Below are positions 4,183 to 63,969 of a stretch of 64,000 bases of DNA, piece after piece. Each line of letters starts with the position of its first letter. Position 1 is the stretch's first letter. Under the pieces are notes generated by a model. That model saw only the letters and a list, made by a program, of their open reading frames with translations, was not told the DNA's origin and did no database searches. Made by a program: the position numbers and the translations under genes. The stretch lies in contig CM026400.1 in NCBI GenBank assembly GCA_014843695.1, positions 32,617,500 to 32,681,499 on the forward strand. The letters are read 5' to 3'. This DNA comes from Archivesica marissinica (lineage: Eukaryota > Mollusca > Bivalvia > Venerida > Vesicomyidae).

Positions 4183-5691
4183 GTGTATCAGTTAATTGAC
4201 ATTTACAACCAAATTTGTAAGGCCTTTGATGAACGTAAATCAACTTGTATTATATTCTGTGATATTAGTAAGGCATTTGACCGAGTTTGGCACAAAGGTC
4301 TTCTTTTCAAACTTCGACAGTATGGCATTTCGGGAAACATAATCAAGTGGTTATCTAGCTATCTTAATGAACGGCGACAAAAGGTTTTTGTTGGATCTGC
4401 ATTCTCTAATGAAAAATGTCTTAATGCTGGTGTACCACAAGGCTCTGTCTTGGGACCCTTACTTTTTATAATATACGTCAATGACATTGCTGAATCTCTT
4501 TATAGTCTAACAAGATTATTTGCTGATGATAGTTCCTTGGCAATGACATCCAACGACTCAAATGTTATAGAAGCTTCACTGAATCATGATCTAATTATAA
4601 TATCAAAATGGTCTAAACAATGGCTTGTTCAATTCAATCCAGCAAAAACAGAAGTTATGTTCTTATCACTAGGTAACGTTAATCGACCAGTGCTATTCTT
4701 CGAAAATACGCAGTTAGATTACTTAAATCACCATAAGTATCTCGGAGTTACACTTAGTGAAGACGGTACGTGGCACAAGCATATATCAAACATTACTACT
4801 TCCGCTTCAAAAACACTAGGATCAATGAGAATGTTAAAATTTAAATTAAAACGCCAAACTCTTAATCAAATATACATATCTTATCTCCGACCTATTTTAG
4901 AATATGCGTCCATAGTCTGGGATAGTTGTACATTATATGAAAAAGAATCTCTAGATAAAATTCAATATGAAGCTGCTAGAATAGTCACGGGACTTACAAG
5001 ATCAGTTTCCATTGAGAAACTTCTTCAAGAAATTGGCTGGGTTTCACTCTCTGATCGCAGAAAAATGCAAACATTAATTTTAGTTCATAAACATATACAC
5101 GATAACGTACCAAGCTACATAACTGATTTATTTCCAACAACTGTTGACGAAGTAAATCCGTACAACTTAAGAAACAATAAAGATTGTGTTACTTTAGCAA
5201 GGCGAACTGAAATTTATTCAAAATCTGTATTACCATCGTCAATAAAACCGTGGAATGAATTGGATATTAATATTCGTAATATAAATACATTGTCGTCATT
5301 TAAAGGGAGGTTGAAAGAAATCTTCAAACCACCAATAGTACCATCATTTTTTAAATCTGGAACTCGACGTCAGCAAGTATATCATGCTCGCATTCGAAAT
5401 TCTTGTAGCAACCTGCATTCAGATCTTTATAATAATCATTTGCGCGATAGTCCAAAATGCTTGTGTGAACTTAACGAAAATGAGGATGCGGAGCACTATC
5501 TAGTTCGCTGTCTATTCTATGTAAATTCCAGACGCGTACTATTCGTAAACACACGTACTTATCATCCCTTAAATACAAGAAAACTACTGTTAGGCTTCGA
5601 AAACTTAGCGGACAATGAAAATGAATATATTTTCACACAAGTTCAAACATTTATTAAAACGACTAAACGCTTCGAGCAAATAACCACATGA
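4183..5691 (+). pseudogene. LINE reverse transcriptase domain, long open part
   Basis: Shows RT motifs CDISKAFDRVWHKG, GVPQGSVLGPLLFIIYVND and LFADDSS (catalytic Asp pair near 4525-4530), then the C-terminal region with a Cys-rich end (CLCELNENEDAEHYLVRC). About 500 residues remain open, but two upstream frameshifts separate it from the endonuclease half. This is a mobile-element gene, not a host gene. Confidence 0.9.
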
Positions 5692-6289: not shown

Positions 6290-6457
6290 CATTTGCATCA
6301 TATGTTGTGAAGATCGAGTCCATGTCGGAATGTCCTGTTATATAACCATCGTTGTTCTGGTCTATGTCCCCAAACAACATATCGGCATCGGACATGAGTG
6401 CAAAATCAGCGTGCGCCCAGCCGTTGTCAAATTCGGTGTTATCGACTTTACCATCGG
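6290..6457 (-). CDS. EF-hand gene exon, half of loop 6, loop 7, start of loop 8
   Basis: Minus strand, 168 nt. Encodes DGKVDNTEFDNGWAHADFAL then MSDADMLFGDIDQNNDGYIT and ends TTYDAN. Acceptor TTGATAG|CCGAT, donor AATG|GTAAAT, phase 1. The next exon should begin with two nt then DG; none was found at lower coordinates. Confidence 0.85.
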
Positions 6458-9400
6458 CTATCAATGAAATACATGTACAAATGTTAATACAGTCAAACCT
6501 CTCCAGAGCAAACACCATCCGGATACACCCATGATTGGTTGTTGTAGAGAGGTTGCTGTTCTAGGGAGGTTCAACTTTTTGAAGTTTGGAAATGCGGGAA
6601 TAGTCAGTTTCGACAGTTATATCTGCTCATACTGATTTGAATATAGAGTATACAGAATGGGGGTACTACTTATATGTACAGACTGTTTTTTCCCCCAGCA
6701 AAATGTTTTGTCTGTTCTTGGGAGGGTTTCTGCATCGCTTGGTGGGAAATTGAATGTCGTTGTGTGTTGTTGGGAGGTGTCGTTCATGAGAGGTGAACTT
6801 GTATTAAAACACAACGGGTGGGAATAAAGGTGACGTTATAAAGAGGGTGTCGCTCATGGGAGGTAATATTTGGGGAGGTGGGACTGTATAATGGTTTTGC
6901 AATACCAGATTTTGCAATACCACTTCTTGCACTACCAATGTTTTCAATACCAGATTTTGCAATACCGTTTTTGCTATGTCAGATTTTGCAATACCAGCTT
7001 TGGCAATACAATTTTTTTCAATACAAGATTTTGCCGTACTGTTTTTGCTATGCCAGATTTTGCAATACCAGTTTTGGCATTACCAGTTTTTGCATTTTGC
7101 AATACCGTTTTTGCTATGCCACATATTGCAATACCAGTTTGTTTGCAATATCGTGTTTGCTATGCCACATTTTGCAATACCAGTTTTGGCAATACCAGTT
7201 TTGACCATATTATTTATTGTAATACCAATTTTTTCAATACGAAATTCAAGCAGTGACAGAGAAATGCCATCTTTCACTGTTTGAAAACAGTTTTCTTTCA
7301 AAACTCAATCATTATTTGGAAGACATACAAGACATACTGGGCTGTCATGTCTTCCACTAGACGAATAAATACAAGTGCATGATAGTAACGTTTTTAGAAA
7401 TTGTGACCCTGAGTTTGAATATGAATATATCTTTAATGCAAACATTGTGGAAGTCGTGGTAGCACTGTGGTAGAGCGTTCGTTTCAGGTGCGAAAGGCCC
7501 GGAGTTCGAGCCCGCTGGAGCCGTTACGATAATGCCCTTAGGCAAGGCATTTAAATTCCACGTTGCCTCTTAAGTTTAAACGGCAGTTTTCCCGTTATTA
7601 CAATGTAGTTTTCATGGTAGCTTGTCGGAGGATATTAATTCGAGACACGTGTTGTGAAATAACGATATCTGATTGGATTATTGATTAGTTTGATTGACAG
7701 GCAGCGACTGGTAAATTACTAAACTAATGTAAACATTACTTACAATTTGTATCAAATGACGAGAAGAAGTTTCGGAATTCCGAATGACTAAGGAATCCAT
7801 CAGTATCTAGGTCAGCCCTCTCAAACAAAACAACAAACGGCGTCTCCCTGACGATCTGCATAAATATATTATATACTTGTATGATAAACAACAAACGGCG
7901 TCTCCCTGACGATCTGCATACACATATACTTATAGGATAAACAACAAGCGACGTCTCCCTGACGATCTGCATACATATATACTTGTAGGATAAACAACAA
8001 GCGACGTCTCCCTGACGATCTGCATACATATATACTTGTAGGATAAACAACAAACGGCGTCTCCCTGACGATCTGCATAAATATATACTTGTAGGATAAA
8101 CAACAAGCGACGTCTCCCTGACGATCTGCATACATATATACTTGTAGGATAAACAACAAGCGACGTCTCCCTGACGATCTGCATACATATATACTTGTAG
8201 GATAAACAACAAACGGCGTCTCCCTGACGATCTGCATAAATATATACTTGTAGGATAAACAACAAACGGCGTCTCCCTGACGATCTGCATACACATATAC
8301 TTGTAGGATAAACAACAAGCGACGTCTCCCTGACGATCTGCATACATATATACTTGTTGGATAAACAACAAGCGACGTCTCCCTGACGATCTGCATACAT
8401 ATATACTTGTAGGATAAACAACAAACGGCGTCTCCCTGACGATCTGCATAAATATATACTTGTAGGATAAACAACAAACGGCGTCTCCCTGACGATCTGC
8501 ATACATATATACTTGTAGGATAAACAACAAACGGCGTCTCCCTGGCGATCTGCATACATATATACTTGTAGGATAAACAACAAACGGCGTCTCCCTGGCG
8601 ATCTGCATACATATATACTTGTAGGATAAACAACAAACGGCGTCTCCCTGACGATCTGCATACATATATACTTGTAGGATAAACAACAAGCGACGTCTCC
8701 CTGACGATCTGCATAAATATATACGTGTAGGATAAACAACAAACGGCGTCTCCCTGACGATCTGCATACATATATACTTGTAGGATCAACAACAAACGGC
8801 GTCTCTGTTCTGATATGGCCGGTTGGTGAGCCGCCAGCTAGTTAAATAATGGTTACCGATTACCTACCAGCCTGGCGCCTGGCATACAAGCATATGATTC
8901 GGGGAGTACTGATGTTCATAAGAAGATATGTCAGAAATGACTTGCCCTTTAAATAGGGGTGAACAACAATTAACAAACACTTTTACTTTAACAATATATA
9001 CTTGTAGGATAAACCACATGCGGAGGCTGAAAATTGAGACTGAACATTTAAAAAAATATTTGTATTTTACTTTTATCAGCCTCAATCATGATATTATTAT
9101 TATTATTAAAAAACGACTACATTTTACTTAATTTCGATATTAATGTATACTCCATTGTTATTATTACAAAATGTATTGTTTAACCCTGTCAACACTACAG
9201 GCCTCTAAATAGACTTACAAAAAGTGTAGATCCAGATGAGTCGGCTAATAATTATTACTATTTTTAGATAAAATTACCCATTTTGATAAATGAACTGGTC
9301 CAAAGGTATTTTTCTTATTAATTTATTGCTCTAAAAATATCATGCACCAGTCCATGTCAGTTACTTGGTGTTGAATGGGTTAAATACCATGCACCAGTCC

Positions 9401-12400
9401 ATGCCAGTTATTTGGTGTTGAATGGGTTAAATACCATGTACCAGTCCATGTCAGTTACTTGGGGTTGACTGGGTTAAGTCACGAAAGCATGAGATGGAAA
9501 TAGAAACAAAACTCACGTCCTCCCATTTCTTGGCAAATTCCTGTGCGGATACGGAACCGTCGTCTGAATAAAATATACAGGTATGCATATATACAGGTAT
9601 GCATATATACACTCAACATAAATACAGGTATGCATATATACACTCAACATAAATACAGGTATGCATAAATACAGGTATGCATAAATACAGGTATGCATAT
9701 ATACACTCAACATAAATACAGGTATGCATATATACACTCAACAAATATACAGGTATGCATATATACACTCAACAAATATACAGGTATGCATATATATACA
9801 CTCAACAAATATACAGGTATGCATATATATGCCTGGGAACAGTCGATTATCCCCCGGAACTTTCTTGTTATTTAACCATATGTTATTGCAAATCAATAGT
9901 ACATATGTCAAAGATACAATACTTGGCATGAAAATACAAATGGTTTGGGCCACAAGTTTTAACAACATTAGACAACGGCCCGCACCAGAAAGTCAAGCTA
10001 ATATTTGACTAAGCTAAATGACCTGAATTTCTTTCTTGAAAAGAGTACGCAAAATAGAATGTAAATAAATATCACATGAAGGATCAGAAAAAAAGACAAA
10101 TTTATAAAAAAAAAGAAGAAGATATTGCTTAGATTGATACATGTATCTCACGATTCCACCCGTTGTTTCCCAACACCACGCCAATACACGAACCCACGAT
10201 CCCGTCTCATAAACAAATAACCCGAACCCATGATCCCGTCTGGTTTAAACATATTTATTCCGCTATATACATTCACAAAACAATACATGCACACAAAATC
10301 AAAGAATAGGAAAGGAACAAAACGGAAGCAGAGCTTATATAGTTTCTCTCCTTGCAGTTCAAAATACACAGTACTATTTTGGACGGTGTGGAGCTAATAC
10401 ATGTATACCAAATGTGCATATTGCTTAGAAATGACAGAAACATAATACCGGTAAGAAAGCAGAAGAAAGAGAAGATATTTGAGAATGTAGCGCAGGCAAG
10501 TCATCAAGTGCACGTCTTATATACATGGGGTCTTATTATGCATAAGGTTTCACTCAAAGAATCGTTTTGTATCACGAATGAAGCTATGGACATATTCAAC
10601 TATTATTTTGTTAATGTCATATGTCAGGGTCTCCTCGCCATGTAGGATACAGATTAGCAGTAGGGCATAATCTTAGCACATTGTGAATCAATTCGAATAT
10701 TAGAATAGTATATACATTCAAAGAAAAAGTGGTAGCTTAAAGTTGTGTTTTATTTGAAGAACAATATAAAGACTCGGGATAGGCGTTATATTTGGACAGA
10801 TTTGTACAAAATTGTTTCAGATAGGGCCATTTTACTGATCGATGCGAAATCTGACATCCCAGAGTAGAATCCCTGTACTTAAATATATATACTAGTACCC
10901 CCAAACGTGCCGAATCCCTGTGTGTAATACTTGTAGGTATCTATCGCCATAATAGAAGAACGTAGGAGTTTTTCTTTTATCTTTGTTTATATAATTTTTA
11001 AAGGTGTTTAGAGTTGTGGCATTCCTAACGTTACTCTCTAGGTCATTCCATTCTCTTATTACGGATGGTAAACATGAATTGTAGTATGAAGTTGTCCTGC
11101 AGTCAATTGGTCGTATAGCGTCGGTATTTCGAAGATTATATCGACTAATTGAAGCAACAGTTGCAGGTACAAGATCAGATAAGTATTCAGGTGTTAAACA
11201 GTTTTTCATTTTATAAAACAGAATTAGTTTGTGTTTGTATCTACGGGTACTTAAAGGTTCCCAGTTAACTTCATTTTGTAGATCAATTAATGAAACTAAT
11301 TTAGATGCACATGTTGCGATTCTGGCAGCCTCGTTTTGATATGTTTCTATTTCATTTTTTTACGAATTCGAGACAGTTATCCCATACAACATCTGAATAT
11401 TCTAAAATATGGCGTATGAATGATGTATAAATTATCTCTAAGGATTTACGATCAAGTTTGTATTTTAATTTCCGCATTATGTATATTCGTTTCCATGATC
11501 CCGTCTCACAAGCAAATAACGTAAAATAATAATAATAATAATAAATAAATAAATAACTTTCCTGTGTGAACAGGCATTGATATATTTTGCCTTGTCAGTC
11601 ATATCAATATATTTTAACACCGATGCCATTAATTGATCCGTATTGAGTTTCTGATAATATCAGATTGAAACCCCATACTAGTTTATAATCGAAAGTGGAA
11701 TTCTGCGAGGGTTGGACTCGTTTGATGAGACGCTTCTAACAGAGACACCCTGAACATTGCCCGAACATATATATTAATAGTTTGTATACTCACGGTCCAG
11801 ATCGAATACACGGTAAACGGCATCATAGTCCAGCTGATTGATCATATTGTCGACATGTAGATCAGCCAGATGGAAATAAGCGTTTGCAAGAGGCTTCGTT
11901 TGTGAAGTAAGTCTTATCCAGTTTTCAACAAATTCCGCGTGTGTTACCGTTCCATCAGCTGCACAGCGGGAACCAGGAATGACAGCAAGAACAACCGCAT
12001 TAAATATGGAATAATACATATTGCATAATTAGAAAACTTAAAAGCGACACTACATCTGTTTCCACAGAATGTAATTTATTATTATATGGTGTACTTGTCT
12101 TCGAAATACAGCCAGATGGAAATAAGCGTTTGCAAGAGGCTTCGTTTGTGAAGTAAGTCTTATCCAGTTTTCAACAAATTCCGCGTGTGTTACCGTTCCA
12201 TCAGCTGCACAGCGGGAACCAGGAATGACAGCAAGAACAACCGCATTAAATATGGAATAATACATATTGCATAATTAGAAAACTTAAAAGCGACACTACA
12301 TCTGTTTCCACAGAATGTAATTTATTATTATATGGTGTACTTGTCTTCGAAATATTTTCCTCAAATACTGGTCCAACGTGATATGTGAAATATGTTTATA

Positions 12401-14865
12401 ACAGAAACCCAATAAAAATAAACACGATATAGGTGATCCAGGTAGTTGGTATCGACCCGGTATAATGAGATACAATCACTTATAAATAAAAGCGAGTTTC
12501 ACTATATATTAGTGTAATGGTATCGTCCTCAATATCGCGATGCATTTATACTGAGTATTTCAACTAATAAACAAACGTCGAATAAAACAAACGTCGTATT
12601 CGACGTTTGTTGACATAACAAAGTAATCTAAATAGAGCCAAAAATGCAGGCGTAATAGTTTATAGTTTATACAAATTTAGTTTAGCTCGATTGCGAAACA
12701 AGTTCTTACAATTTATATTAATCGCTCTCGAGATCTCATTCCTGATGGAATCCATTGCCACGAGGAGAGAGAGAAGAGGCAACGTGGAATTTAAATGCCT
12801 TGCCTAAGGGCACACTCGTAACGGCTCCAGCGGGGCTCGAACTCCGGACCTTTCGCACCTGAAGCGAACGCACATCCATTGCGCTATCACGACTTCCAGG
12901 CGTAATAAAACGCATGTATCCTGAATAACCTGGTTTATGGTACATATTTACCGTTATATCTCACACATGTGCCAATGGATATCTATTTTACACTATTCTT
13001 AGTTAAATATCATCTAAGCGACGGTATCACGCCATTAGTATTGACTCCAATTCAGGAGCTTGGATGACCGTTATATAAAATCCTATTTTCGCTTTTGAAA
13101 GTGTGTAGACCACAACAACACAATGCTACTTACGAAAGATGATATAAAAGTAATGAAATTGGCACGGCACATCTCATCATTTCCAACCCGAATTCGTTTC
13201 GGATAACCCGTTTTATAATACTGAAACGACGACAACCTAGTATAACGTACCATTTTTGTCTAATCCCTTGAATACATCGGATAACTCGCTTTTTGTAATA
13301 TTGCGGTCCAGATTCGCGTCTGCTTTCAGGTACAAGACGTTTATCAGACCGTATATGTCCGGTCGAGAAGGACTGAAATAGAAATGAAACTGTGTGTGTT
13401 TTACGTTTATTTTTCGTCGCTACCGGTTACCCATTTGAGCGACGCCTCCTGAAGAGATTAGTCATTTTAGATTTTTGGAGTACAGTGCAATGATACAGAG
13501 AGAGATCCATTCCAGACTCTCCTCTGGTTCTTTTAAATGCACGGTGTAAAGCACCGACACGAGACCTCGGTTTAACGTCCCATCTGAAAGACAGTTAATT
13601 TTATTAGGGTCAGACGGGGGATCGAACCTGCGATCCCTGGATTACCAGTCCAGCGTGTTACCACTGGACTACAGATCCGTCTTTAAAATGAAATGAAACT
13701 TATTTGAACGCAAGCCTATATAGCGGGACTAATCCACTCAAGAATCATCTACGACAACATTGAAAATGACATATTTAAAGCAATGTTGCAAAACGAGAGT
13801 TTTTGCGTTCATGTATCGTCGCTACCGGTTGCCCATATGAGCGACGCCTCCTGAACAGCTTTGGAGGATAGTGCAATGATACAGACAGAGACCCATTCCA
13901 GAGTCTCCTCTCGTTCTTTTACGTGCACGGTGTAAAAGCATCGATACGAGACCTCTGTTAAAAGACCCATCTGAAAGACTGTTATTTTTATTAGTATCAG
14001 GCGGGGGATCGAACTTGCGATCGCTAGATTCGCAGTCCAACGTATTAACCAGTGCACTACTGACCTGTCTGTTGTTGCAAAGCATAGACACATTTATATA
14101 TACATGTGTGTATATAATTATGCTGCAACACGCTGTTAGTGTGTTTCTAATCACAACTTTAGAATATAGTGTGTTTGTTTATTATAGTGTCACCCCTATT
14201 TAAAGGCCAGCCATTTCTGACTTATGAGACACCTCTTTTTATGACCATCATTACTTTCCGAATCCTATGCTTGTATGCCAGACGCCAGGCTGGTGCATAT
14301 ATTACTAGGTGTCTTAGACCAGTCATTAAATTAAATAATATTATTCGACACTAGGCGTACTATACGTGTTGCTTGGTGGAATACACGGAGAAAACCCTCC
14401 TGTACGATTTAGCGGCCACCATACCATCTCACATATATCTCGGTCCGAGGATCGAACCAGGGTTGTAGTGGCGAGAACCCTTATAAATGACTTTTCACAA
14501 GCTGTATAAGCTGTATATGACTGGCAGCGAAGAGATTGTAGTACCGGAAATTTCGATCGAAATTCAGTAAAGAAACAAAGAGACTCTGTGGGTTTTTCAG
14601 AGTTAAGAGCACGGACTGATGAAATTGCGAGGTGAGCAGCTTACGGGAATATTTTAGTCATGATCAACAAATAATATTTAGTTTTGACATATTTTCAATA
14701 TTTAATTACCACTATTATCCAGTTTGAAAATATATTACACATCAAAATACCGAAAAGGATTAGAATGAAAGACATAATCTTATATAATTCTTCTCCTCAA
14801 AATAATACTTACTGAGTGTGTGCACTGAAAGTGCAAACCACCAAGGAGATAAGCCAACATGTAAC
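6290..14865 (-). CDS. Secreted multi-EF-hand calcium-binding protein, six exons found, both ends missing
   Basis: Exons in transcript order: 14865-14813, 13372-13251, 11958-11794, 9563-9517, 7855-7744, 6457-6290 (667 nt). All phases join. Joining them restores EF loops exactly: DKNADGTVTHAE, DLDHDGSVSAQE and DTNSDGKVDNTE span exon junctions, and DLDTDGFLSHSE is intact within an exon. Looser loops are DANLDRNITKSE (Arg at the Gly position), DLHVDNMINQLD, and DQNNDGYITGHS (no final Glu). The first exon reads as a signal-peptide core (VTCWLISLVVCTFSA), so the product is probably secreted. Resembles extracellular EF-hand proteins of molluscs; the exact family is not recognised. The start ATG and the exon completing the eighth loop were not found. 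Confidence 0.85.
6490..6886. mobile_element. pogo/Tigger-like MITE
   Basis: Starts TA|CAGTCAAACCTCTCC and ends GGGAGGTGGGACTG|TA, with TA flanks. The interior repeats GGGAGGT. It lies in the intron just upstream of the 6290-6457 exon. Confidence 0.65.
6888..7245. repeat. Minisatellite, GCAATACCAGTTTT units
   Basis: About 15-20 irregular copies of a 14-30 bp unit built on TTTTGCAATACCAG. Intronic in the EF-hand gene; open frames here are by-products of the repeat. Confidence 0.85.
7449..7571 (+). mobile_element. SINE-B, 5' half with tRNA-like head
   Basis: Head AAGTCGTGGTAGCACTGTGG resembles an A box, and GAGTTCGAGCC a B box. Followed by the family body CCCTTAGGCAAGGCATTTAA. 3' truncated. 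Confidence 0.8.
7744..7855 (-). CDS. EF-hand gene exon, loop 5 and half of loop 6
   Basis: Minus strand, 112 nt. Encodes IVRETPFVVLFERADLDTDG then FLSHSEFRNFFSSFDTN. Acceptor TATGCAG|ATCGTC, donor AATT|GTAAGT, phase 1. The acceptor and first 28 nt are repeated about 17 times in the adjacent array. Confidence 0.87.
7856..8790 (-). repeat. Splice-acceptor minisatellite, 53-bp unit, about 17 copies
   Basis: Each unit, read on the minus strand, contains TATGCAG|ATCGTCAGGG and the first 28 nt of the EF-hand exon at 7744-7855, followed by intron sequence. Two variants alternate (exon-identical, and one with two substitutions). No stop occurs in any of the three minus-strand frames for over 800 bp. 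Confidence 0.95.
8810..8975. mobile_element. Unnamed interspersed repeat
   Basis: Matches segments at 14193-14310 and 20214-20560 (shared CTTGTATGCCAGGC and GGCTCACCAACCGGCC in one or other strand). No coding capacity or termini identified. Confidence 0.6.
9181..9382. mobile_element. piggyBac-like MITE (TTAA family)
   Basis: TTAA|CCCTGTCAACACTA start and GGTGTTGAATGGG|TTAA end are inverted copies. Shortened internally compared with the 240-bp copies. Followed by two extra tandem copies of its right end (9383-9476). Confidence 0.8.
9383..9476. repeat. Two tandem copies of the MITE right end
   Basis: About 47 bp each, ending TTGAATGGGTTAA and TTGACTGGGTTAA. Same unit as the large array at 29700-31500. 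Confidence 0.85.
9517..9563 (-). CDS. EF-hand gene exon, second half of loop 4
   Basis: Minus strand, 47 nt. Encodes DGSVSAQEFAKKWED. Acceptor TATTCAG|ACGAC, donor GAC|GTGAGT, phase 0. It completes DLDHDGSVSAQE with the preceding exon. Confidence 0.86.
9572..9832. repeat. Minisatellite, ATACAGGTATGCATATATAC units
   Basis: About ten copies of a 20-31 bp unit beginning just intronic of the EF-hand exon 9517-9563. Unlike the neighbouring array it does not contain exon sequence. Confidence 0.85.
9871..10010 (-). mobile_element. LINE 3'-tail fragment
   Basis: Shares ATTGCAAATCAATAGTACAT and AACATTAGACAACGGCC with 14948-15085 and 43421-43600. Inverted relative to AATAAAATATGA tails. 10011-10890 holds AT-rich sequence with a possible further LINE tail near 10240-10345; nothing else recognised. 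Confidence 0.55.
10892..11480 (-). mobile_element. LINE fragment, RT C-terminal region
   Basis: On the minus strand, IRHILEYSDVVWDNC and, further on, LVPATVASISRYNLRNTD and LPSVIREWNDLESNVRNA align with the C-terminal third of the LINE at 4183-5691 (YISYLRPILEYASIVWDSC; LPSSIKPWNELDINIRN). It is frameshifted near 11360 and truncated at both ends. Confidence 0.82.
11481..11790. other. No feature recognised
   Basis: Contains an AATAATAAT microsatellite at about 11525-11560; otherwise intron sequence of the EF-hand gene. Confidence 0.5.
11794..11958 (-). CDS. EF-hand gene exon, half of loop 2, loop 3, half of loop 4
   Basis: Minus strand, 165 nt. Encodes DGTVTHAEFVENWIRLTSQT then KPLANAYFHLADLHVDNMIN and QLDYDAVYRVFDLD. 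Acceptor TGTGCAG|CTGAT, donor GACC|GTGAGT. Its first 96 nt and its acceptor are copied in the tandem duplicate at 12109-12354. Confidence 0.88.
12109..12354 (-). pseudogene. Tandem 246-bp duplicate with broken copy of an EF-hand exon
   Basis: This segment repeats 11863-12108 almost base for base at an offset of 246. It carries the acceptor (12205-12206) and the first 96 nt of the 165-nt exon (12204-12109), then breaks into intron sequence. It has no clear donor at the break, and reads through to a stop about 20 codons later (LAVFRRQVHHIIINYILWKQ). Near-identity to the parent implies a recent event. Confidence 0.85.
12658..12896 (-). mobile_element. SINE-B, near full length, with target duplication
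   Basis: Minus orientation. Flanked by CAGGCGTAATA at 12647-12657 and 12897-12907, an 11-bp target site duplication. The head ends in CGCTATCACGACTTC; the tail includes GCGAAACAAGTTCTTACA. Confidence 0.9.
13251..13372 (-). CDS. EF-hand gene exon, loop 1 and half of loop 2
   Basis: Minus strand, 122 nt. Encodes PSRPDIYGLINVLYLKADAN then LDRNITKSELSDVFKGLDKN. Acceptor TATTTCAG|TCC, donor AATG|GTACGT, phase 1. The exon ends inside an EF loop after DKN. Confidence 0.85.
13402..13682 (-). mobile_element. SINE-A, full length, tRNA-derived head
   Basis: On the minus strand the head reads GACGGATCTGTAGTCCAGTG (A box), with a CTGGA stem, CTGGTAA loop and TCCAG stem (tRNA-like anticodon GGT), and B box GGTTCGATCCC. 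The body ends with TAAACGTAAA. Polymerase III promoter elements are intact by eye. Intron of the EF-hand gene. Confidence 0.88.
13806..14070 (-). mobile_element. SINE-A copy
   Basis: Same family as 13402-13682, with a more diverged head (GGTCAGTAGTGCACTGG) and a deletion in the body. Intronic. Confidence 0.85.
14193..14482. mobile_element. Unnamed repeat followed by diverged SINE-D-like copy
   Basis: 14193-14310 matches 8810-8975 inverted. 14344-14482 contains inverted CGGAGAAAACC and GGATCGAACC, like SINE-D. 14483-14812 shows nothing recognised. Confidence 0.5.
14813..14865 (-). CDS. EF-hand gene, signal-peptide exon
   Basis: Read on the minus strand between TTTCAG and GTAAGT, 53 nt. In the frame that joins the next exon it gives VTCWLISLVVCTFSAHTH, a hydrophobic core followed by small residues typical of a signal-peptidase site. 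Another frame has an ATG, but its phase would not fit the next exon. The upstream initiator exon is unidentified. Confidence 0.65.
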
Positions 14866-14947
14866 CTGAAACATAAACATTTTCACTTTTGCTTAGTGTT
14901 TCATATATTGACTTAGATAGATAGCAGTAGTCATATTTGTATGTTCT

Positions 14948-15085
14948 ATTTATCCATATTTTATTGCAAATCAATAGTACATATGTTGACCATACACATA
15001 CACATACAATACATAGCATGAACATACAAATGGTTTGGACCACACGTTTTAGCAACATTAGACAACGGCCTGTACCAGATAGTTA
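14948..15085 (-). mobile_element. LINE 3'-tail fragment
   Basis: CATATTTTATTGCAAATCAA is the inverse of the LINE tail; close to 9871-10010. Confidence 0.6.
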
Positions 15086-15164
15086 AGCTAACGTTTGATT
15101 AAATTAAATGACTGATTTTCTTTCTTGAAACGTGTACGCAAAATAAAATGTAAATAAAAACCAC

Positions 15165-15678
15165 TTAAAGCGACATTACATCGGTGAAAACGCAAATTGC
15201 TACAGAATATATTTCCCTATTATATAGTATTAATATTTCCCGAATATTTCCACCAAAATCTGAGTGTTTCAACTAATAAACTAACGGCGTATACGACGTT
15301 TGTTGACATAACAAACTAATGTAAACATGGTCAACATCGATGCGTAATGCAATGTGTGTATCCTGAATAACACGATTTATGGTACACATTTATTCCGTTA
15401 TATTTCACACTGTGTGCCTATGCATATATAATTTTAGACTAATACGACAGTAGCACGCGCTTGGTATAGACTCCAATAGTAAACAAACATTAATTCAGGA
15501 GCGTAGCTGACAGTGATATGAAATCATACTTTCACTTTTGAATGTCTGTATACCACAAAAACAATGTTTATGCATAGAAAGTTAGGTTTCGAATTATTTC
15601 GGACGAATTTGTATTAGCAATGCTATTTATACATAAAGACGCATTTTTGGGGCATTTTGCGATGTAATGTCGCTTTAA
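15165..15678. mobile_element. DNA-transposon-like element with perfect 19-bp TIRs
   Basis: TTAAAGCGACATTACATCG (15165-15183) is exactly inverted at 15660-15678. No coding capacity, 514 bp. An older relative spans roughly 12282-13135 and hosts the SINE-B at 12658. Confidence 0.8.
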
Positions 15679-16941
15679 AGAATCAGAAAAAAACGACAAA
15701 TTAATAATAAAAAAAAGAGAAGAAGATATTGCTTAGATTAGTTCAATCATATTTTATTTTATCAATATTTACATCATGTTGTAACATTAATATACAAGAA
15801 CAGATGGATTAAATCGGAAGCTAGTAGCTTATTTAGATATTCTCCATGACAAACATATTTTTCATAGACTATGGCAGAGTGTATATACATTTATGAATGT
15901 GACAAGTTTTACTCAACTGTAATGATATAAGTGTAAGTAAAAATAATATGGAGATGATGATGAAGTAAACAATCAGACTGGCTTACCAGTCGGATTACGT
16001 GCAGTCAATTTAGGAAATGGTGAGAAAGAATTGCTTAGATTGATACCTGTATCTCACGATTCCATCCGTTGTTTCCCAACACCACGCCAATACACTTGTA
16101 TGTTCATAACCGAACACGGTATGCTATGTTTTATTGTGCCATAAATTCATCGTCGGTGGCAGATTTTGTTATTTATACATACATGTACCTTCTTAGCGAT
16201 TTTTATAGTTGAAACTGACATACATTACTTTTCATGATTACGATATGAATGTTTCATGTCTTAGCAATGCGAATGATGATAAAAACAAGGAAAGCTCTCT
16301 TATTGCAAAACAAGCAAATAATGACAGACATCGGTCAGTTACTGCCCCTGAATATTCCCTAAAAGTAGATAGGTCATATTAAGTGTTTTCCTCTATTTTT
16401 ATCCTAGTTTCCTTTGCACACCATGCTAACACTTTTATCCCACTATCGCTTCTTGTAATTATTAAATTACTACATGTATATATCGGCAGATATCCTACAG
16501 TATATGCAATGGACACTTATTTGTAAAACAATGATATCAGTTAATTAACGCCATTTTGATAAAAACACATTTTTTTCATACCGCAAAATCTTGTTAGGAC
16601 ACAACAGTAAAAACAAAGGATACCAACAAAAAGGACCTATTTACATTTTGGGATAAATCAGACTATCTGCCAAGGGAGATAATACAAAATTTGCGATGTC
16701 TCTCATTATCAGAATTAAAATAATTAAACATTGGTGTGTACAGTGAAACAGCCCCAAACAAGAACCCTTATATGATAGAATTCTCTTCATACCGAACACA
16801 AGTCTTGGTCCTGAATTTCCCCTGTACAAACACATCTGTAAATCGGAACCCGAACCGATAAAAAAATGTGCCAGACTTTTTCACCTGTTATTTACCTCTG
16901 TAAACCGAAAAGCAACTTGTCTTGATCAACTATGAAACTTT
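15679..16941. other. Intergenic, no gene recognised
   Basis: A LINE-tail-like stretch (ATCATATTTTATTTTATC) lies at about 15745-15900. The rest is AT-rich; a missing 5' exon of the EF-hand gene could be here but I could not identify it. Confidence 0.4.
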
Positions 16942-17184
16942 TAATCCATTCAACACCAAGTAACTGACATGGACTGGTCCATGATATTTTTAGACCAATA
17001 AATTAATAACAAAATTACGTTTGGATCAGTACATTTATCAAAATGGGTAATTTTTTCTTCTAAAAATAGTTATATTACTTGAAAAAAGTGCAGATCCTGA
17101 TGAGACGGCTCGTCACGAGCCGGCTCATCTGGATCTACACTTTTTTGTAAGCCAATTTAGAGGTATGTGGTGTTGAAAGGGTTA
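16942..17184. mobile_element. piggyBac-like MITE, full length
   Basis: TTAA-flanked, with TAATCCATTCAACACCAAG and GGTGTTGAAAGGGTTA ends. The centre holds the palindrome GGCTCGTCACGAGCC flanked by GATGAGAC and GGCTCATC. Confidence 0.88.
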
Positions 17185-17426
17185 AACAAACAAACTTCAG
17201 CTATATTTTTCAGAATGTTATTATTGTACACTTACAATTAATACGTTCTTTACTAACTGTCGAACTATAAACATGTACCAGGGTCCTTCCAAGCATCGCA
17301 TCGTTGAACTGTTACATTTGAGAAATATTAAAAAAAACCTCTAAATCGAATACCCCATCCAAACCGAATCTTATTTCTGGTCCGGAGGCAGTTCTGTTTT
17401 ACAATTGATTCAAATAAGCACAACCC

Positions 17427-17691
17427 CGCCTCCGTGGTCGAGTGGTTAAGGTCGCTGACTTGTATACCACTGTAACCTATCATCACTGATGGTCACGGGT
17501 TCGAGCCCCGCTCAGGCAATGCCTCATTTATATGAAAAAGTTGGCAGTTTCTTTCGGAGGTTGGTGCACTCACGTACTGGTTAACCGCTGGAGCCTGCCC
17601 AGGAAAGGTGTTGTTAAGTAAACTTCCCGCCGGCGATATAGCCCGAAATGGTGCTGATGCAGGCGTAAAACCCGAAATATAGCATAACAAT
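17427..17691 (+). mobile_element. SINE-C, full length
   Basis: Head GCCTCCGTGGTCGAGTGGTT (A box), B box GGGTTCGAGCCC, body with CCTGCCCAGGAAAGGTGTTG and a GATGCAGGCGTAAAACCCG end. No long poly(A). 17692-18309 has a 36-bp SINE-A head piece at 17963-18000 and nothing else recognised. Confidence 0.88.
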
Positions 17692-18309
17692 ATATAACCT
17701 AATGCAAACTTGATGTTTTCAATAGCTCAATTTAATTGTCATATTCTTACCATATTTGAAAGAGATAACCACTGTAGGCTTAATCGCATGCCAACTGACT
17801 TCAGCCGATTCGTTATCAGTAACCTTTGCCTTATCATTTTGAAATGCGTCCTATACACGTACGCACCATTTGTGAATCACCAACTTATTCTGTTTCTGAT
17901 ATCAAATGTTTGTATGTACATATATATTGCCACTTATTCAACCATGAATGGCATATCCCTATATTACCAGCGTGTTACCACTGGACTACAGATCCGTCTG
18001 TATCAGCGGAAACTGGAAACGTTTTATCAAAATGTGATCGTTATGAATAACAGGACGTGTAAAGAATGCAATAACTATCCAGCTGGGTTGGGGTAGATCA
18101 GTGGTTCTACCCTGGCGCCCGTCTGTGCCAGAAATAAGGTTCGGAGGCGCTCGGGTTCTTCTTCCACCAATACCAGTCGCCATATGAACTCCAAAAACAA
18201 AACAAGAAAGTTTGAAATTTCATATACATATGTATGTATCATTACGAAGATATTTTACTGTTCGTATTCAGTACGGTACTGTTACGGGGTTTATTGAAAT
18301 TTGCCAAGA

Positions 18310-19309
18310 NNNNNNNNNNNNNNNNNNNNNNNNNNNNNNNNNNNNNNNNNNNNNNNNNNNNNNNNNNNNNNNNNNNNNNNNNNNNNNNNNNNNNNNNNNN
18401 NNNNNNNNNNNNNNNNNNNNNNNNNNNNNNNNNNNNNNNNNNNNNNNNNNNNNNNNNNNNNNNNNNNNNNNNNNNNNNNNNNNNNNNNNNNNNNNNNNNN
18501 NNNNNNNNNNNNNNNNNNNNNNNNNNNNNNNNNNNNNNNNNNNNNNNNNNNNNNNNNNNNNNNNNNNNNNNNNNNNNNNNNNNNNNNNNNNNNNNNNNNN
18601 NNNNNNNNNNNNNNNNNNNNNNNNNNNNNNNNNNNNNNNNNNNNNNNNNNNNNNNNNNNNNNNNNNNNNNNNNNNNNNNNNNNNNNNNNNNNNNNNNNNN
18701 NNNNNNNNNNNNNNNNNNNNNNNNNNNNNNNNNNNNNNNNNNNNNNNNNNNNNNNNNNNNNNNNNNNNNNNNNNNNNNNNNNNNNNNNNNNNNNNNNNNN
18801 NNNNNNNNNNNNNNNNNNNNNNNNNNNNNNNNNNNNNNNNNNNNNNNNNNNNNNNNNNNNNNNNNNNNNNNNNNNNNNNNNNNNNNNNNNNNNNNNNNNN
18901 NNNNNNNNNNNNNNNNNNNNNNNNNNNNNNNNNNNNNNNNNNNNNNNNNNNNNNNNNNNNNNNNNNNNNNNNNNNNNNNNNNNNNNNNNNNNNNNNNNNN
19001 NNNNNNNNNNNNNNNNNNNNNNNNNNNNNNNNNNNNNNNNNNNNNNNNNNNNNNNNNNNNNNNNNNNNNNNNNNNNNNNNNNNNNNNNNNNNNNNNNNNN
19101 NNNNNNNNNNNNNNNNNNNNNNNNNNNNNNNNNNNNNNNNNNNNNNNNNNNNNNNNNNNNNNNNNNNNNNNNNNNNNNNNNNNNNNNNNNNNNNNNNNNN
19201 NNNNNNNNNNNNNNNNNNNNNNNNNNNNNNNNNNNNNNNNNNNNNNNNNNNNNNNNNNNNNNNNNNNNNNNNNNNNNNNNNNNNNNNNNNNNNNNNNNNN
19301 NNNNNNNNN
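18310..19309. other. Assembly gap, 1000 N
   Basis: Exactly 1000 N, a default scaffold gap. It abuts a near-perfect 90-bp satellite on the right, so unassembled satellite is the likely content. Confidence 0.99.
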
Positions 19310-19850
19310 TGTAATATCACCAAATTTCCATGTTCACCAAATGCATTGCGCTTCTGAAAATTAAGAAATATTCCCCAATTTCAAACACATTTTATTTAGT
19401 GTAATATCACCAAATTTCCATGTTCACCAAATGCATTGCGCTTCTGAAAATTAAGAAATATTCCCCAATTTCAAACACATTTTATTTAGTGTAATATCAC
19501 CAAATTTCCATGTTCACCAAATGCATTGCGCTTCTGAAAATTAAGAAATATTCCCCAATTTCAAACACATTTTATTTAGTGTAATATCACCAAATTTCCA
19601 TGTTCACCAAATGCATTGCGCTTCTGAAAATTAAGAAATATTCCCCAATTTCAAACACATTTTATTTAGTGTAATATCACCAAATTTCCATGTTCACCAA
19701 ATGCATTGCGCTTCTGAAAATTAAGAAATATTCCCCAATTTCAAACACATTTTATTTAGTGTAATATCACCAAATTTCCATGTTCACCAAATCCATTGCG
19801 CTTCTGAAAATTAAGAAATATTCACCAATTTCAAACATATTTGAAATATT
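19310..19850. repeat. Satellite, 90-bp unit, six copies
   Basis: Unit begins GTAATATCACCAAATTTCCA. Copies are almost identical, and the array runs straight into the assembly gap. 19851-20213 shows nothing recognised. Confidence 0.97.
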
Positions 19851-20213
19851 ATTAATAGGTGTAACAACACCGAATTTCTTTTTTCACCAAGCTGGCACGA
19901 ACCTTATTATGACTGTTCCACTTTAAATATGTAAACATTGAGATTGTTGGAAATGTGAGAACAATGTATACCAATAATATTGTACTTTGAAGAATAAAAA
20001 ATGCACAAATATTTACTATGTTTTTTATCTATAGCAATGCCATTGATGACAGAGAATATATGTAACTGTAACCTAGGGAATGGGGCCAAATGAACAAAAT
20101 TCATATTCATTTTTTCTATTCAAAAGCACTTGCATATATATGAAAGAAGTAAAGGCTGCACTAATTTTCTGGTGCCCTTTTTAATTGTAAAAGTAAAATG
20201 TTTGTTTATTATA

Positions 20214-20560
20214 GTGTCACCTGAGACACCTCTTTTTTAGGTTATACAAATTTATTTTAGCTCGATTGCGAAACAAGTTATTTCAACTTATATAAATCAC
20301 TCTCGAGACCTCATTCCTGATGGAATCCATCGCAACGAGGGAGAGAGAAGAGGCAACGTGGAATTTAAATGTCTTGCCTAAGGGCACAATCGTAACGGCT
20401 CCAGTGGGGCTCGAACTCTGGACCTTTCGCACCTCTTTTTTATGAACAGCAATACTTCCCGAATCATATACTTGTATGCCAGGCTGGTAGGCTGGTAGGC
20501 AATCGGTAACCATTATTTAACTAGTTGGCGGCTCACCAACCGGCCATATCAGAATGGACC
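20214..20560. mobile_element. Unnamed repeat interrupted by SINE-B
   Basis: The host repeat (as at 14193) is split by a 5'-truncated SINE-B (20242-20434, minus). ACCTCTTTTTT(A) occurs on both sides, a target duplication of about 11 bp. Confidence 0.8.
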
Positions 20561-20770
20561 CCTGACGAGATTCAAACCTTGTATTTAGTTACGATAACAG
20601 TGTTTTTAATTCTAAAGTTTTGACAGCCTGATTGTCATGAGCACTCTGTCTGATCATTTATTTTATGGACTTTTGGCCCCAATTTGCTGCCATCAGATAT
20701 TTGACTAACAATGTCCTCTGCCTGGCAAGGACCAGTTTCATCAGATTACCTCTCCATTCTCAATGCAACT

Positions 20771-21170
20771 ACGGTATATCAAGTATTTGAGGTTGGACGG
20801 GTTGGGTTTTGGTATAGTCCAGCCGTTCAACCACGGTATATCAAGTATTTGAGATTGGACGGGTTGGGTTTTGGTATAGTCCAGCCGTTCAACCACGGTA
20901 TATCAAGTATTTGAGATTGGACGGGTTGGGTTTTGGTATAGTCCAGCCGTTCAACCACGGTATATCAAGTATTTGAGGTTGGACGGGTTGGGTTTTGGTA
21001 TAGTCCAGCCGTTCAACCACGGTATATCAAGTATTTGAGATTGGACGGGTTGGGTTTTGGTATAGTCCAGCCGTTCAACCACGGTATATCAAGTATTTGA
21101 GATTGGACGGGTTGGGTTTTGGTATAGTCCAGCCGTTCAACCACGGTATATCAAGTATTTGAGGTTGTAC
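20771..21170. repeat. Minisatellite, about 62-bp unit, 6-7 copies
   Basis: Unit built on GGTATATCAAGTATTTGAGA and TTGGGTTTTGGTATAGTCCA. Further diverged copies lie at 21425-21560, beyond a SINE-E insertion. Confidence 0.93.
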
Positions 21171-21244
21171 AGTTTCAAGTAGTTGATTGTACAGTGGTTG
21201 CCAGGTTGGATGGATTGGGTTTTGGTATAGTCCAGCAGTTCAAC

Positions 21245-21420
21245 CGGTGGCATCCGTAGTCCAGTGGTAGAGCGTCGGATTTGTAATCGAATGGTCCCGG
21301 CATTGAGCAACCTTACACACATTGCTTAGTACTGGTTAACCACTTAGGCCGGCTAAGCCTGCCCAGGAAAACATGTCTAGGTCCCCGCAAGGGGTTTGAC
21401 ATTAATGGAACATACAACAT
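21245..21420 (+). mobile_element. SINE-E copy
   Basis: Head GGCATCCGTAGTCCAGTGGT with tRNA-like GTCGGATTTGTAATCGAA, and a body ending AGGTCCCCGCAAGGGGTTTG. Second copy at 62098-62305. Confidence 0.8.
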
Positions 21421-21560
21421 ACATACAACCACGGCATATCAAGTATTTGAGATTGCACGGTCGTTGCCAGGTTGGGTTGGGTTTTTGTATAGTCCAGCGG
21501 TTCCATCACGGTATATCAAGTATTTGAGATTGCACGGTCGTTGCCAGGTTGGATTGGTAG

Positions 21561-23505
21561 TGTTACGGTGTAGCCCTGTATCGAGTTCTCAATGAAGAAT
21601 TAGAGTTCAATTTATGCTAAAATATTTACATACTTGTGCAAATGCATATGAACTATATGAAACTTGTATATAGTTCTTTATACCTTGGTGTTCTCAAACA
21701 ATCGATATCATTCTATTAAATCATTAAATATCTAGAGTGGTGGAACCTATGCTCAGCGTATTCCTATGTTTGGCGTATTATTTCCATTTACATCTGTATT
21801 TAAAATATTTAAATAGTTTTAACCTATTTTCGCTGATAGAGGTGAAGCATGGTTCAATAGCATTCCGTTGTGCGTGCCGGTAGCATAATGCAACTGTCAC
21901 CTGACTGGCTCCGTAGCCGAATATAAACAGATAACTTGATGGGAATTTTTTTCCACTGAAACGATGCGGTTTATAAGCATTTCAGGTAGCTATCCGAATT
22001 GGAAAAAAATGTACAAATAGGTAACCAGAAAAAAAGTTTCTTATGAGTTTTAATATTGTTAGTTATTGATGTTACTAAGTCAAAATAATATATTCAATAT
22101 TTACACGTGCATACATAAACAAATTCATGTACGCCGTGCATAGGTGCCCTAAAGTATCTAGTTTCCTATGGAAACGGGTGCCGTTGCGATAGCTGTATTT
22201 AGGCGCATGGTCACATAATGAAGCTAACATTTTCAACAACAATTTTTTGAAAGTTGTGTTCACGACTTAATAAAATAATAATATACGGCAAGTGCATTTA
22301 ACTTTTTTTATGGGCCATGATATGTAGGATTTACGCCGAACATAGGTTCCACCACTCTAATTCACATTTGCATATCAACATCAATTAAATAAATAGCAAA
22401 ACATCCCTACTAAACTATAAGAATTAGACACAAATAGCAATATTTATTGAATCTGTCGGGTGTAGAGGACTATGCACAATAATGCTATTCACACAGTCTC
22501 TCATCAAAGAACTTAGGAACAATTATTGGTATTAGACCTACAATGTGATAATGTTAAACGTCACGAGCGCAACAATAACGGGACGGGAACAAAACAAGCA
22601 CCGTTCAAAAACGCAAATGACAAATAATTCATTCTACACACGACTGTTTATTGTTTGTCTATAGCTGAACTTTTAATGCTAATCTTGGAGTATGTATATC
22701 TGTTCGTCTTAATTTTGTAAATGTTATTATGATGTGTTATATTGATTAACCAGGAATATGACACTAGTTTTCGCGACCTCGAAATATAGGTTATACGCCA
22801 CTAAATTGTTTATTTTATAAACTTACTGTATATCCCTGTACATTTGTAGTTTGTACCTCTTCTGTCATTGTACAAACACATACCACTGTGCGTTTTGTCT
22901 TGACCCAACTTCATTAATGATATTGGACAACATTTTTAGATGGTCAAAACAATCAAACCACAGGAACTTGAAATGTTATCCATAAGCCACCAAAGGTCTC
23001 GTACCTCCATCATAGGACACCCCCCTCTATTAAAAAAAAAGAAATGTTATCCATAAGCCACAAATGGTCTCATACCTCTATCCTAGGATCTTATGGAAAA
23101 ATTCCAAGTTCCTGTGATAAAACATATGGTACCTATATTGCCTATAACCTGCTGGACTTTTTCTCCTTTTGATTTATACAACTGTACAAGGCCCACTCAG
23201 TGGCTGGGTTAGGGATAGAGGCAGTAATCCCTCAAAACAAGTGGTAGTAAGCTACAACTGAAAAGTTGGAATATATCCGAAACCACTCCCAAGATTACTG
23301 CCAATTGTCCCAAGATTACTGCCAATTGTATATTTCGTTTTCTGCAGTGGCTGTGGAGCATTAGCATACAAAGCCAATCTGTTGTGGTGAAGACATCCAC
23401 ATATTCCCGGTAGAGACCAGTACTATCTTCCCTCACATATCATTTTATAGCTTATTAAAAAAAATACGAGCCTCTGTGGTCGAGTTGTCTAACACAATAT
23501 CATCA
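21561..23505. other. Intergenic, no gene recognised
   Basis: Low-complexity-free AT-rich sequence. A small foldback with CACAGGAACTTG at 22964 and CAAGTTCCTGTG near 23108 is the only structure noted. Confidence 0.4.
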
Positions 23506-23509
23506 GGGT

Positions 23510-23765
23510 CACAGGTTCATCCTTACGATAATGTGCCAATCAGGTTTGCTCACTACGATAATGCGCCAATCAGGGTCACAGGTTCGTCCTTACGATAATG
23601 CGCCAATCAGGGTCACAGGTTCGTCCTTACAATAATGCGCCAATCAGGTTTGCTCACTACGATAATGCGCCAATCAGGGTCACAGGTTCGCTCCCTACGA
23701 TAATGCACCAATCAGAGTCACAGGTTCGCTCCCTACAATAATGCGCCAATGTGGGCACTGTTCAA
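23510..23765. repeat. Minisatellite, ACGATAATGCGCCAATCAGG units
   Basis: Seven to eight copies of a 35-40 bp unit with GTCACAGGTTCG. 23800-24040 is a diverged SINE-B-like body. Confidence 0.85.
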
Positions 23766-24285
23766 ATCAAATACCAATGGAAGTGTTATGTTGTTTGACC
23801 GGTGGAGAAGATGATTGCGGAGCGTCTTTACTGGCAACAATGGAATTCATCTCCATGAGGGAGAGAGAGGAGTCAATATGGATTTAAGGGTCTCCCTTAA
23901 GGATTCCACCACCGTGGTTCACATAGCGCTCAAACTCACAACCTCTCGGTTACCCGGCAAACACCATATCACCACCTTGGTTCTGGGGATTCAAACTCGC
24001 AACCTCTCGATTACAAGGTAGACACCGTAATTAATTTGCATTCCATCACGCAGGCTCCACAGTGTCAGTGCATGATTTCCATATCATTTCTGGCTGAATT
24101 GATTGTCTTCTTATATATACTACAACTGTTGAACATATATTTTAATATATTACTACATTGTACATTATAATACTAACAGGTTCATGGATTATGTCAAGTA
24201 CCTGGTGCGCACCCAGGTAGAACCTCCAGCCGTCTGCTGTGTTTTACATATCCTGTTCTGATCCTGTGTTTTGGTTAGTTTAGTT

Positions 24286-24518
24286 CATACAAATTTATTT
24301 TAGCTCTATTGCGAAACAAGTTCTTACAACTTATATTAATCACTCTGGAGACCTCATTCCTGATGAAATCCATTGCCACGAAGGAGAGAGAGAGAAGAGG
24401 CAACGTGGAATTTAAAAGCTTTGTCTAAGCCAACGGCACAATCGTAGCAGCTCCAGCGGGGCTCAAACTCCGGGCCTTTTGCACTTGAAGCGAACAAACT
24501 ACCACTGCACTATTACTT
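24286..24518 (-). mobile_element. SINE-B copy
   Basis: Minus orientation, with family blocks GCGAAACAAGTTCTTACAAC and TGAAGCGAAC. Nearly full length. 24041-24285 and 24519-24800 show nothing recognised. Confidence 0.85.
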
Positions 24519-24811
24519 CTCCATTCTCAAAGCCTCTTCAAAATCTACATGGTTTTCAATCGTAGCAAACTGTTACTTTATTGTTGTATGTTGTTGGCGG
24601 TATTTCGGGCACCAGGGTAGAACCACCGACCTTGCACAATGCAGTAGTGTATCTTCAGCACATTAAATAATTTGACACCCTCGGTGGAATTAGAACCTAC
24701 AGTTGTTACGGGCAAGTGATTTGAAGGCAACAACCATAATCACCAGAACCCCTAAATACACCACCTTTGAACCAAAAAGAAGCTGTACAAACTATACCAA
24801 TTTAGATAGTA

Positions 24812-25223
24812 CAGTAAAACCCCTATAATAAGACCACCTATGGGACTTCCAATAAGTGGTCTTATTAGCGGGTGGTCTCTTTATCGAGTTTGGTCAAGAA
24901 GACCAAATTATGATAATTTTACTACATGTACAATGTACTTTCACACATGATAATTTCTTGGGGTTTTTTCTTGGTTTTTCTGTTTTAATTACAGAAGAGT
25001 TGGTCGTTTCTATGGTTTAGCACGGTCGTATTAGGGGTTCAATTAGCATAGGATTAATGGCATTTGTCTGAATTAACTGGTCGTATTACGGAATAACGGA
25101 GTGGTCTGGTTGTCGGAGTCAACGACCATTGACATATATAGTGAAATATTCCGTTCTGAAAAAAATCGTTCGCAATAGCGGGGTGGTCTCGAAATCGGGT
25201 GGTCACATAGAGGGTTTTTACTG
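24812..25223. mobile_element. pogo/Tigger-like element just upstream of SKIV2L exon 1
   Basis: TA|CAGTAAAACCCCTATAATAA at the left and TAGAGGGTTTTTACTG|TA at the right, 412 bp. It ends 36 bp before the first coding exon, so any promoter or acceptor context abuts this element. Confidence 0.85.
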
Positions 25224-25285
25224 TACATGTATGTATACATTATTTTATCTTTGTTTCAGATAATTTGGTGTAGACATTCGCAGTA

Positions 25286-63969
<38,684 letters not shown>

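Follow-up and report, generated by a model that had tools for sequence, protein, structure and literature searches.

Why do tandem arrays in two genes of the vesicomyid clam Archivesica marissinica lie across the borders between exons and introns, and does their position call for a process that targets such borders? We addressed this question in a stretch of 64,000 nt (GenBank assembly GCA_014843695.1, contig CM026400.1, positions 32,617,500 to 32,681,499), hereafter the window, which carries the gene of the RNA helicase SKI2 (SKIV2L) and a gene for an EF-hand protein. Junction arrays occupy 9 of the 53 splice sites of the two gene models (6 of 26 acceptors and 3 of 27 donors), and in each of the nine the repeat unit spans the exon-intron boundary, with an exon overlap of 7-96 nt.

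Gene models and junction arrays

SKI2 is the helicase of the Ski complex. Its gene (25286-63969, plus strand, exons E1-E22, 3' end beyond the window) was modelled by tblastn with the Mercenaria SKI2 protein (P0001), aligned along the 22 exons. The model encodes 1101 aa without a stop and shows AG/GT at every internal junction. A 571-aa piece of the joined translation matched PDB 7qdr, Helicase SKI2W, with an E value of 9e-253. A 919-residue query found its best match in Mercenaria mercenaria (85% identity), followed by a match at 80% and by Mactra at 78%; among the 120 matches listed, the Branchiostoma entries reached 58-60%, and amphioxus was rejected as the source of the DNA on this ground. 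The EF-hand gene (6290-13372, minus strand), recognized by the Pfam EF-hand domain, was modelled in part, over five exons, X1 (13251-13372), X2 (11794-11958), X3 (9517-9563), X4 (7744-7855) and X5 (6290-6457). Relatives were found in Ruditapes (75% identity with a 196-aa query), Mactra, Mya and Dreissena. As both Mercenaria and Ruditapes belong to the Veneridae, the SKI2 identities would place the animal close to that family. Together, the two models contain 25 introns.

A first-pass annotation had described eight arrays at exon borders of two unrelated genes, with units that include the splice site and 7-53 nt of the exon. All eight were recovered by Tandem Repeats Finder (TRF), whose output for the window comprises 82 rows, and when the copies are written out, the unit is seen to run across the junction. 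The exon borders proposed there are those of the ortholog-guided gene models, and the two genes are identified as SKI2 and the EF-hand gene. The exon overlaps given by TRF for each array below fall in the range described, and the outer, intronic array ends differ from the TRF ends by a few to 15 nt.

In the EF-hand gene, the X4 acceptor array (7828-8805, minus strand) has 18 copies of a 53-bp unit with 28 nt in the exon; its junction at 7855 (7855/7856 in the gene model) was set from exon phase and orthologs. The other acceptor arrays of this group lie on the plus strand in SKI2. At E10 (44643-45310, junction 45296/45297) 19 copies reach 14 nt into the exon, with copy spacings of 32 and 37 bp and a higher-order period of 276 bp. 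The E18 array (58407-58763, junction 58746/58747) has 9 copies of a 39-bp unit, 17 nt being exonic, the E19 array (59124-59643, junction 59621/59622) 12 copies of a 45-bp unit with 22 nt exonic, and the E22 array (63375-63872, junction 63858/63859) 19 copies of a 27-bp unit with 14 nt exonic. The three donor arrays, likewise in SKI2 on the plus strand, are those of E13 (52728-53286, junction 52760/52761; 13 copies of about 41 bp, 33 nt exonic), E14 (54393-55468, junction 54445/54446; 16 copies of 61 bp, 53 nt exonic) and E20 (61311-61826, junction 61317/61318; 24 copies of 21 bp, 7 nt exonic). A ninth array, beyond the eight of the first-pass annotation, was seen at the EF-hand X2 acceptor by TRF, in the sequence and by ortholog alignment. 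It consists of two 246-bp copies (11863-12354, minus strand) that are 100% identical and include 96 nt of exon.

The working copy and the decoy splice sites

The protein sequences deduced from the window were aligned with 7 SKI2 and 5 EF-hand relatives, and no insertion was found in the window protein at any of the nine junctions; a single residue is missing from one SKI2 relative (P0016), 20 positions ahead of the E13 junction. Since the alignments cross the nine junctions without insertion, the conserved protein is obtained with the exon-side copy. By protein homology, then, the functional site lies in the terminal, exon-side copy in 9/9 arrays, which bears out the earlier proposal that it is always the copy touching the rest of the exon. 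In the E18 array, 4 of 24 positions of the functional copy depart from the consensus of the array.

The other copies were counted by a sliding comparison with windows of 19-28 nt, copies above 34% mismatch being excluded. The AG or GT is intact in 108 of the 123 non-functional copies, and the E20 donor array has lost GT in 9 of 23. Splice-site strength was scored with a matrix built from array-free sites only (24 donors and 20 acceptors). Among the 108 intact decoys, 69 equal or exceed the score of the working site, and 75 are no weaker than the weakest ordinary site. Splicing at 102 of the 108 would introduce an in-frame stop codon; the 6 stop-free decoys all belong to EF-hand X4, where they are 6 of 17 upstream acceptors.

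No selection on the decoys was seen when changes in the splice dinucleotides (17/246) were compared with those at the other window positions (122/2635; Fisher P 0.12), the direction being that of faster change in the dinucleotides. Junctions with and without arrays had similar leave-one-out scores, both for acceptors (6 versus 20, P 0.98) and for donors (3 versus 24, P 0.51). The idea that weak splice sites favour extra copies was rejected, as the scores show no difference. Taken together, the sequence data fit extra splice sites that would be passive decoys, and the choice of the copy is probably made through exon definition, as general splicing knowledge would lead one to expect.

Array density and the chance expectation

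Tandem arrays make up 20,503 of the 41,850 nt of intron (49%) in the 25 introns, and in a list merged by hand from TRF, 9 of 30 intronic arrays span a junction. The number expected by chance was estimated with three null models, in which the arrays were slid in the present introns (null 1), in introns whose arrays had been collapsed to one unit (null 2), or in introns from which, in addition to this collapse, dispersed repeats found by self-comparison had been removed (null 3). With at least 7 exonic nt required, the expected numbers of spanning arrays were 2.5 (P 0.0002) and 3.4 (P 0.003) for nulls 1 and 2, and 2.9 (P 0.0008) and 4.0 (P 0.009) when one exonic nt sufficed. Null 3 gave 4.9 (P 0.03), and 5.8 (P 0.09) with one exonic nt.

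The same nulls were applied to automatic lists of 26-36 arrays, which were made at four score cut-offs and either included or omitted four arrays whose units recur elsewhere. The expected numbers were 3.3-3.6 for null 1 (P 0.0014-0.0041), 4.2-4.9 for null 2 (P 0.010-0.032) and 5.6-6.5 for null 3 (P 0.06-0.17). These lists enter the E10 array with its 276-bp period instead of the 34 bp of the hand list, which raises the expected number; they also shorten the E13 and E14 arrays and count the remainder of E14 as further nonspanning arrays. The excess over chance therefore ranges from 1.4- to 3.6-fold according to the null, with P values from 0.0002 to 0.17, all of them optimistic since the window was picked for its striking look. 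The excess is moderate, and it depends on the length of the introns at the time when the arrays were seeded.

The two gene models contain one purely exonic array, an 18-bp unit repeated wholly inside SKI2 exon E20 (61010-61132, plus strand, by TRF) with the reading frame kept. This single in-frame array fits the removal of most exonic duplications by selection. The repeat makes an Asn/Ser-rich stretch 18 residues longer than it is in Mercenaria.

Array structure and clues to mechanism

If the duplicating mechanism took its measure from the splice site, the junction would be expected at a constant position within the unit. The exonic part of the unit varies from 0.33 to 0.87 and does not depart from uniformity in a Kolmogorov-Smirnov test (P 0.22, n=9), which has little power on nine values. 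At 8 of the 9 junctions, those folded as single-stranded DNA, no unusual folding was detected (z -1.13 to 1.35), and duplication driven by hairpins was rejected on this ground.

Repeating patterns of copies are present in the E10, E20 and E22 arrays, and with the 276-bp period of E10 they are suggestive of unequal exchange or of the duplication of blocks. Copies farther from the exon are more diverged from the functional copy in the E13 (rho 0.68, P 0.015) and E22 (rho 0.65, P 0.004) arrays; the trend is marginal in E19 (0.57, P 0.065) and absent in the other five of the eight arrays tested.

For eight of the nine junction arrays no match elsewhere in the window was found at E 1e-3. The X4 array at 7828-8805 has short matches; the best six of 16 measure 26-30 bp and lie in the same intron, about 190 bp deeper. 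A transposon-borne origin of the junction arrays was rejected, given eight arrays without a match elsewhere in the window and one with short matches only.

Among the nonspanning arrays, those beginning at 9335, 29673, 25515 and 61920 do have matches elsewhere, and these four were dropped in half of the runs with automatic lists. Arrays at 39740, 45433, 48858, 49408 and 56699 also have matches (48858 and 49408 with each other) and were kept in the counts. Two units occur at two distant places each, one at 25515-26890 and 61920-61967, the other at 29673-31500 and 9335-9477, where it adjoins dispersed repeats. Such recurrence suggests that some arrays travel inside mobile elements.

Further repeats were noted in the window. 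In SKI2 intron 11, two adjacent arrays of 20-bp units in opposite orientation form an inverted tandem array of 1.1 kb (48858-49998); comparison of opposite strands gives about 71% identity over 549 bp. SKI2 intron 3 consists largely of a 38-bp array (32254-35813, about 94 copies), which takes up 3560 of its 3912 nt. An open reading frame at 4183-5691 contains a reverse transcriptase domain (PF00078, E 7e-25) and presumably belongs to a non-LTR (long terminal repeat) retroelement, and a tRNA-Thr (GGT)-like sequence at 13606-13678, within a stretch marked as dispersed repeat, is perhaps a tRNA-derived element.

Comparison with known systems

The first-pass annotation knew of no named system of this kind, and here it has to be corrected: such arrays have already been named mirages in amphioxus (PMC3087553), and a variable number of tandem repeats (VNTR) of like form exists in human CBS (PMC2630376). 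Amphioxus mirages were described in Adh3 and in the globins BflGb6 and BflGb9 (PMC3087553), PGBD5 and troponin C being added later (PMC3902484). The repeat units measure 10-72 bp in Adh3 and 150-160 bp in the globins, and mirages were reported as possibly general in cephalochordates (PMC3087553, PMC3902484). As in the nine clam arrays, the tandem unit spans the exon-intron boundary, and here too many but not all of the extra splice dinucleotides are intact. The hosts there are cephalochordates, whereas the clam is a bivalve, and two of its genes carry nine arrays at their 53 splice sites; the difference in host concerns the reported taxonomic range and not the structure of the repeat. For amphioxus, length and somatic instability and RT-PCR (reverse transcription PCR) evidence were reported, whereas the clam arrays are known from the sequence of one assembly. 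The original paper on the Adh3 mirage is said to be that of Canestro in 2002.

The human CBS VNTR, c.1444_1467+7(16_21), has a 31-bp unit that crosses a donor (PMC2630376) and is placed at 'exon 13-intron 13' (PMC1395315). It resembles the clam donor arrays in that the unit combines 24 exonic and 7 intronic nt in 16-21 copies (PMC2630376). It differs from them in being a single polymorphic locus. Lievers, in 2001, reportedly associated this VNTR with enzyme activity.

Internal tandem repeats at exon-intron boundaries are also described in human segmentally duplicated genes, where they are defined by copy-number variation between paralogs and tied to novel introns (PMC2812944). Intron gain by tandem genomic duplication, as in the Rogers model and the potato RdRp case, likewise has duplicated splice signals as its raw material (PMC4974935, PMC3087553). 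In contrast to both, the nine clam junctions show neither a changed nor a gained exon, as judged by protein alignment alone. In the earthworm metallothionein gene, the excerpted text describes intronic minisatellites and exon duplications, and no junction arrays were seen in it (PMC12783039).

By title, no report of mirages in molluscs was found in the literature searched, and none that joins minisatellite, intron, splice site and bivalve, most subscription papers lying outside the search. Dense mirages in a mollusc are thus new as far as searched, and the kind itself is already known.

Discussion

We consider it likely that the arrays are ordinary minisatellites of the mirage type, seeded at random and tolerated since their outermost copy is preserved. 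In a window that is very rich in tandem repeats, duplications of about 20-250 bp would arise in tandem all along the genes. Exonic duplications would be purged by selection and intronic ones retained; those straddling a border would also be retained, since in their outermost copy an undamaged splice site still adjoins an undamaged exon. Slippage and unequal exchange, to which the copy patterns point, would then extend the arrays into the intron. The spliceosome would use the exon-side copy, probably through exon definition, the identity of the junctions being deduced from protein homology, and the other sites would remain passive decoys. A duplicator that seeks splice sites would be unnecessary, and the modest excess at borders would reflect introns that were short at seeding. 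The first-pass annotation had held that a process that repeatedly duplicates exon-intron borders, or tolerance of it, is implied. Tolerance is retained here; a border-targeting process is not required, because 49% of the intron is array and the expectation for seeding in short introns comes nearer to nine. A moderate bias in seeding may exist.

Several results weigh against random seeding. Nine spanning arrays are too many for introns of present length (2.5-3.6 expected, P 0.0002-0.004), collapsing the arrays alone still gives P 0.003-0.03, and the P values become slightly lower once the four arrays of recurring units are dropped. Null 3, for its part, presupposes that the dispersed repeats arrived after the arrays. 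The nonspanning arrays also crowd the borders, with 5, 7, 10 and 10 of 21 lying within 30, 50, 75 and 100 nt of a splice site; for introns of present length the P values are, in that order, 0.009, 0.004, 0.0004 and 0.004, and collapse of the arrays raises them to 0.10, 0.09, 0.04 and 0.20. The weak power of the uniformity test also counts here, and the exclusion of copies with more than 34% mismatch underestimates decay.

Under a rival account, tandem duplication prefers exon-intron borders, for example through strand breaks coupled to transcription or splicing, chromatin steps at the edges of exons or RNA copying, and borders would then seed minisatellites more often than other places. In present introns, the 9 spanning arrays among 30 and the 10 of 21 nonspanning arrays at most 75 nt from a splice site (3.4 expected, at the strongest of the four cut-offs) both agree with such a preference, as do the junction arrays in several unrelated amphioxus genes (PMC3087553, PMC3902484). 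Yet the excess falls to 1.4- to 1.8-fold (P 0.03-0.17) when the introns are deflated, the junction occupies no constant position within the unit (at low power), donors and acceptors are both affected irrespective of splice strength, the 8 junctions tested show no special folding, and the case was chosen for its look. We therefore regard a border preference as rather unlikely. It is with similar reserve that we view the wider proposal that exon-intron borders in this bivalve lineage, like those of amphioxus, are true duplication hotspots tied to transcription or splicing, with introns growing outward from their edges.

Selection for the repeated sites, as spare or regulatory sites for alternative isoforms, might be argued from the many intact decoys that score as high as the working site, from the open frame behind some upstream acceptors of X4, and from the finding that human boundary repeats are able to create new introns (PMC2812944). 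We hold it to be very unlikely, as nearly all intact decoys would introduce a stop codon and the dinucleotides are no better conserved than other positions, the GT losses at E20 included. We give equally little credence, if not less, to an assembly error in which repeats were collapsed or expanded or haplotypes joined. The window does contain two runs of exactly 1000 N (1768-2767 and 18310-19309), which are gaps of set size; the perfectly identical copies at X2 may be an assembly duplication, and one amphioxus mirage seems to be misassembled in the genome draft according to its authors (PMC3087553). However, the copies differ by point changes in 8 of 9 arrays and form repeating patterns in three, which a simple join error would not make, although copy numbers may still be wrong.

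The finding that a mollusc has 9 of 53 splice sites of two genes affected suggests that mirages are not a cephalochordate oddity. The arrays are natural series of nearly identical competing splice sites, among which the spliceosome must choose the exon-side copy, and such dense decoy sites are a warning for gene predictors. It becomes possible to test in sequenced bivalves whether tandem duplications are drawn to exon borders or simply tolerated there.
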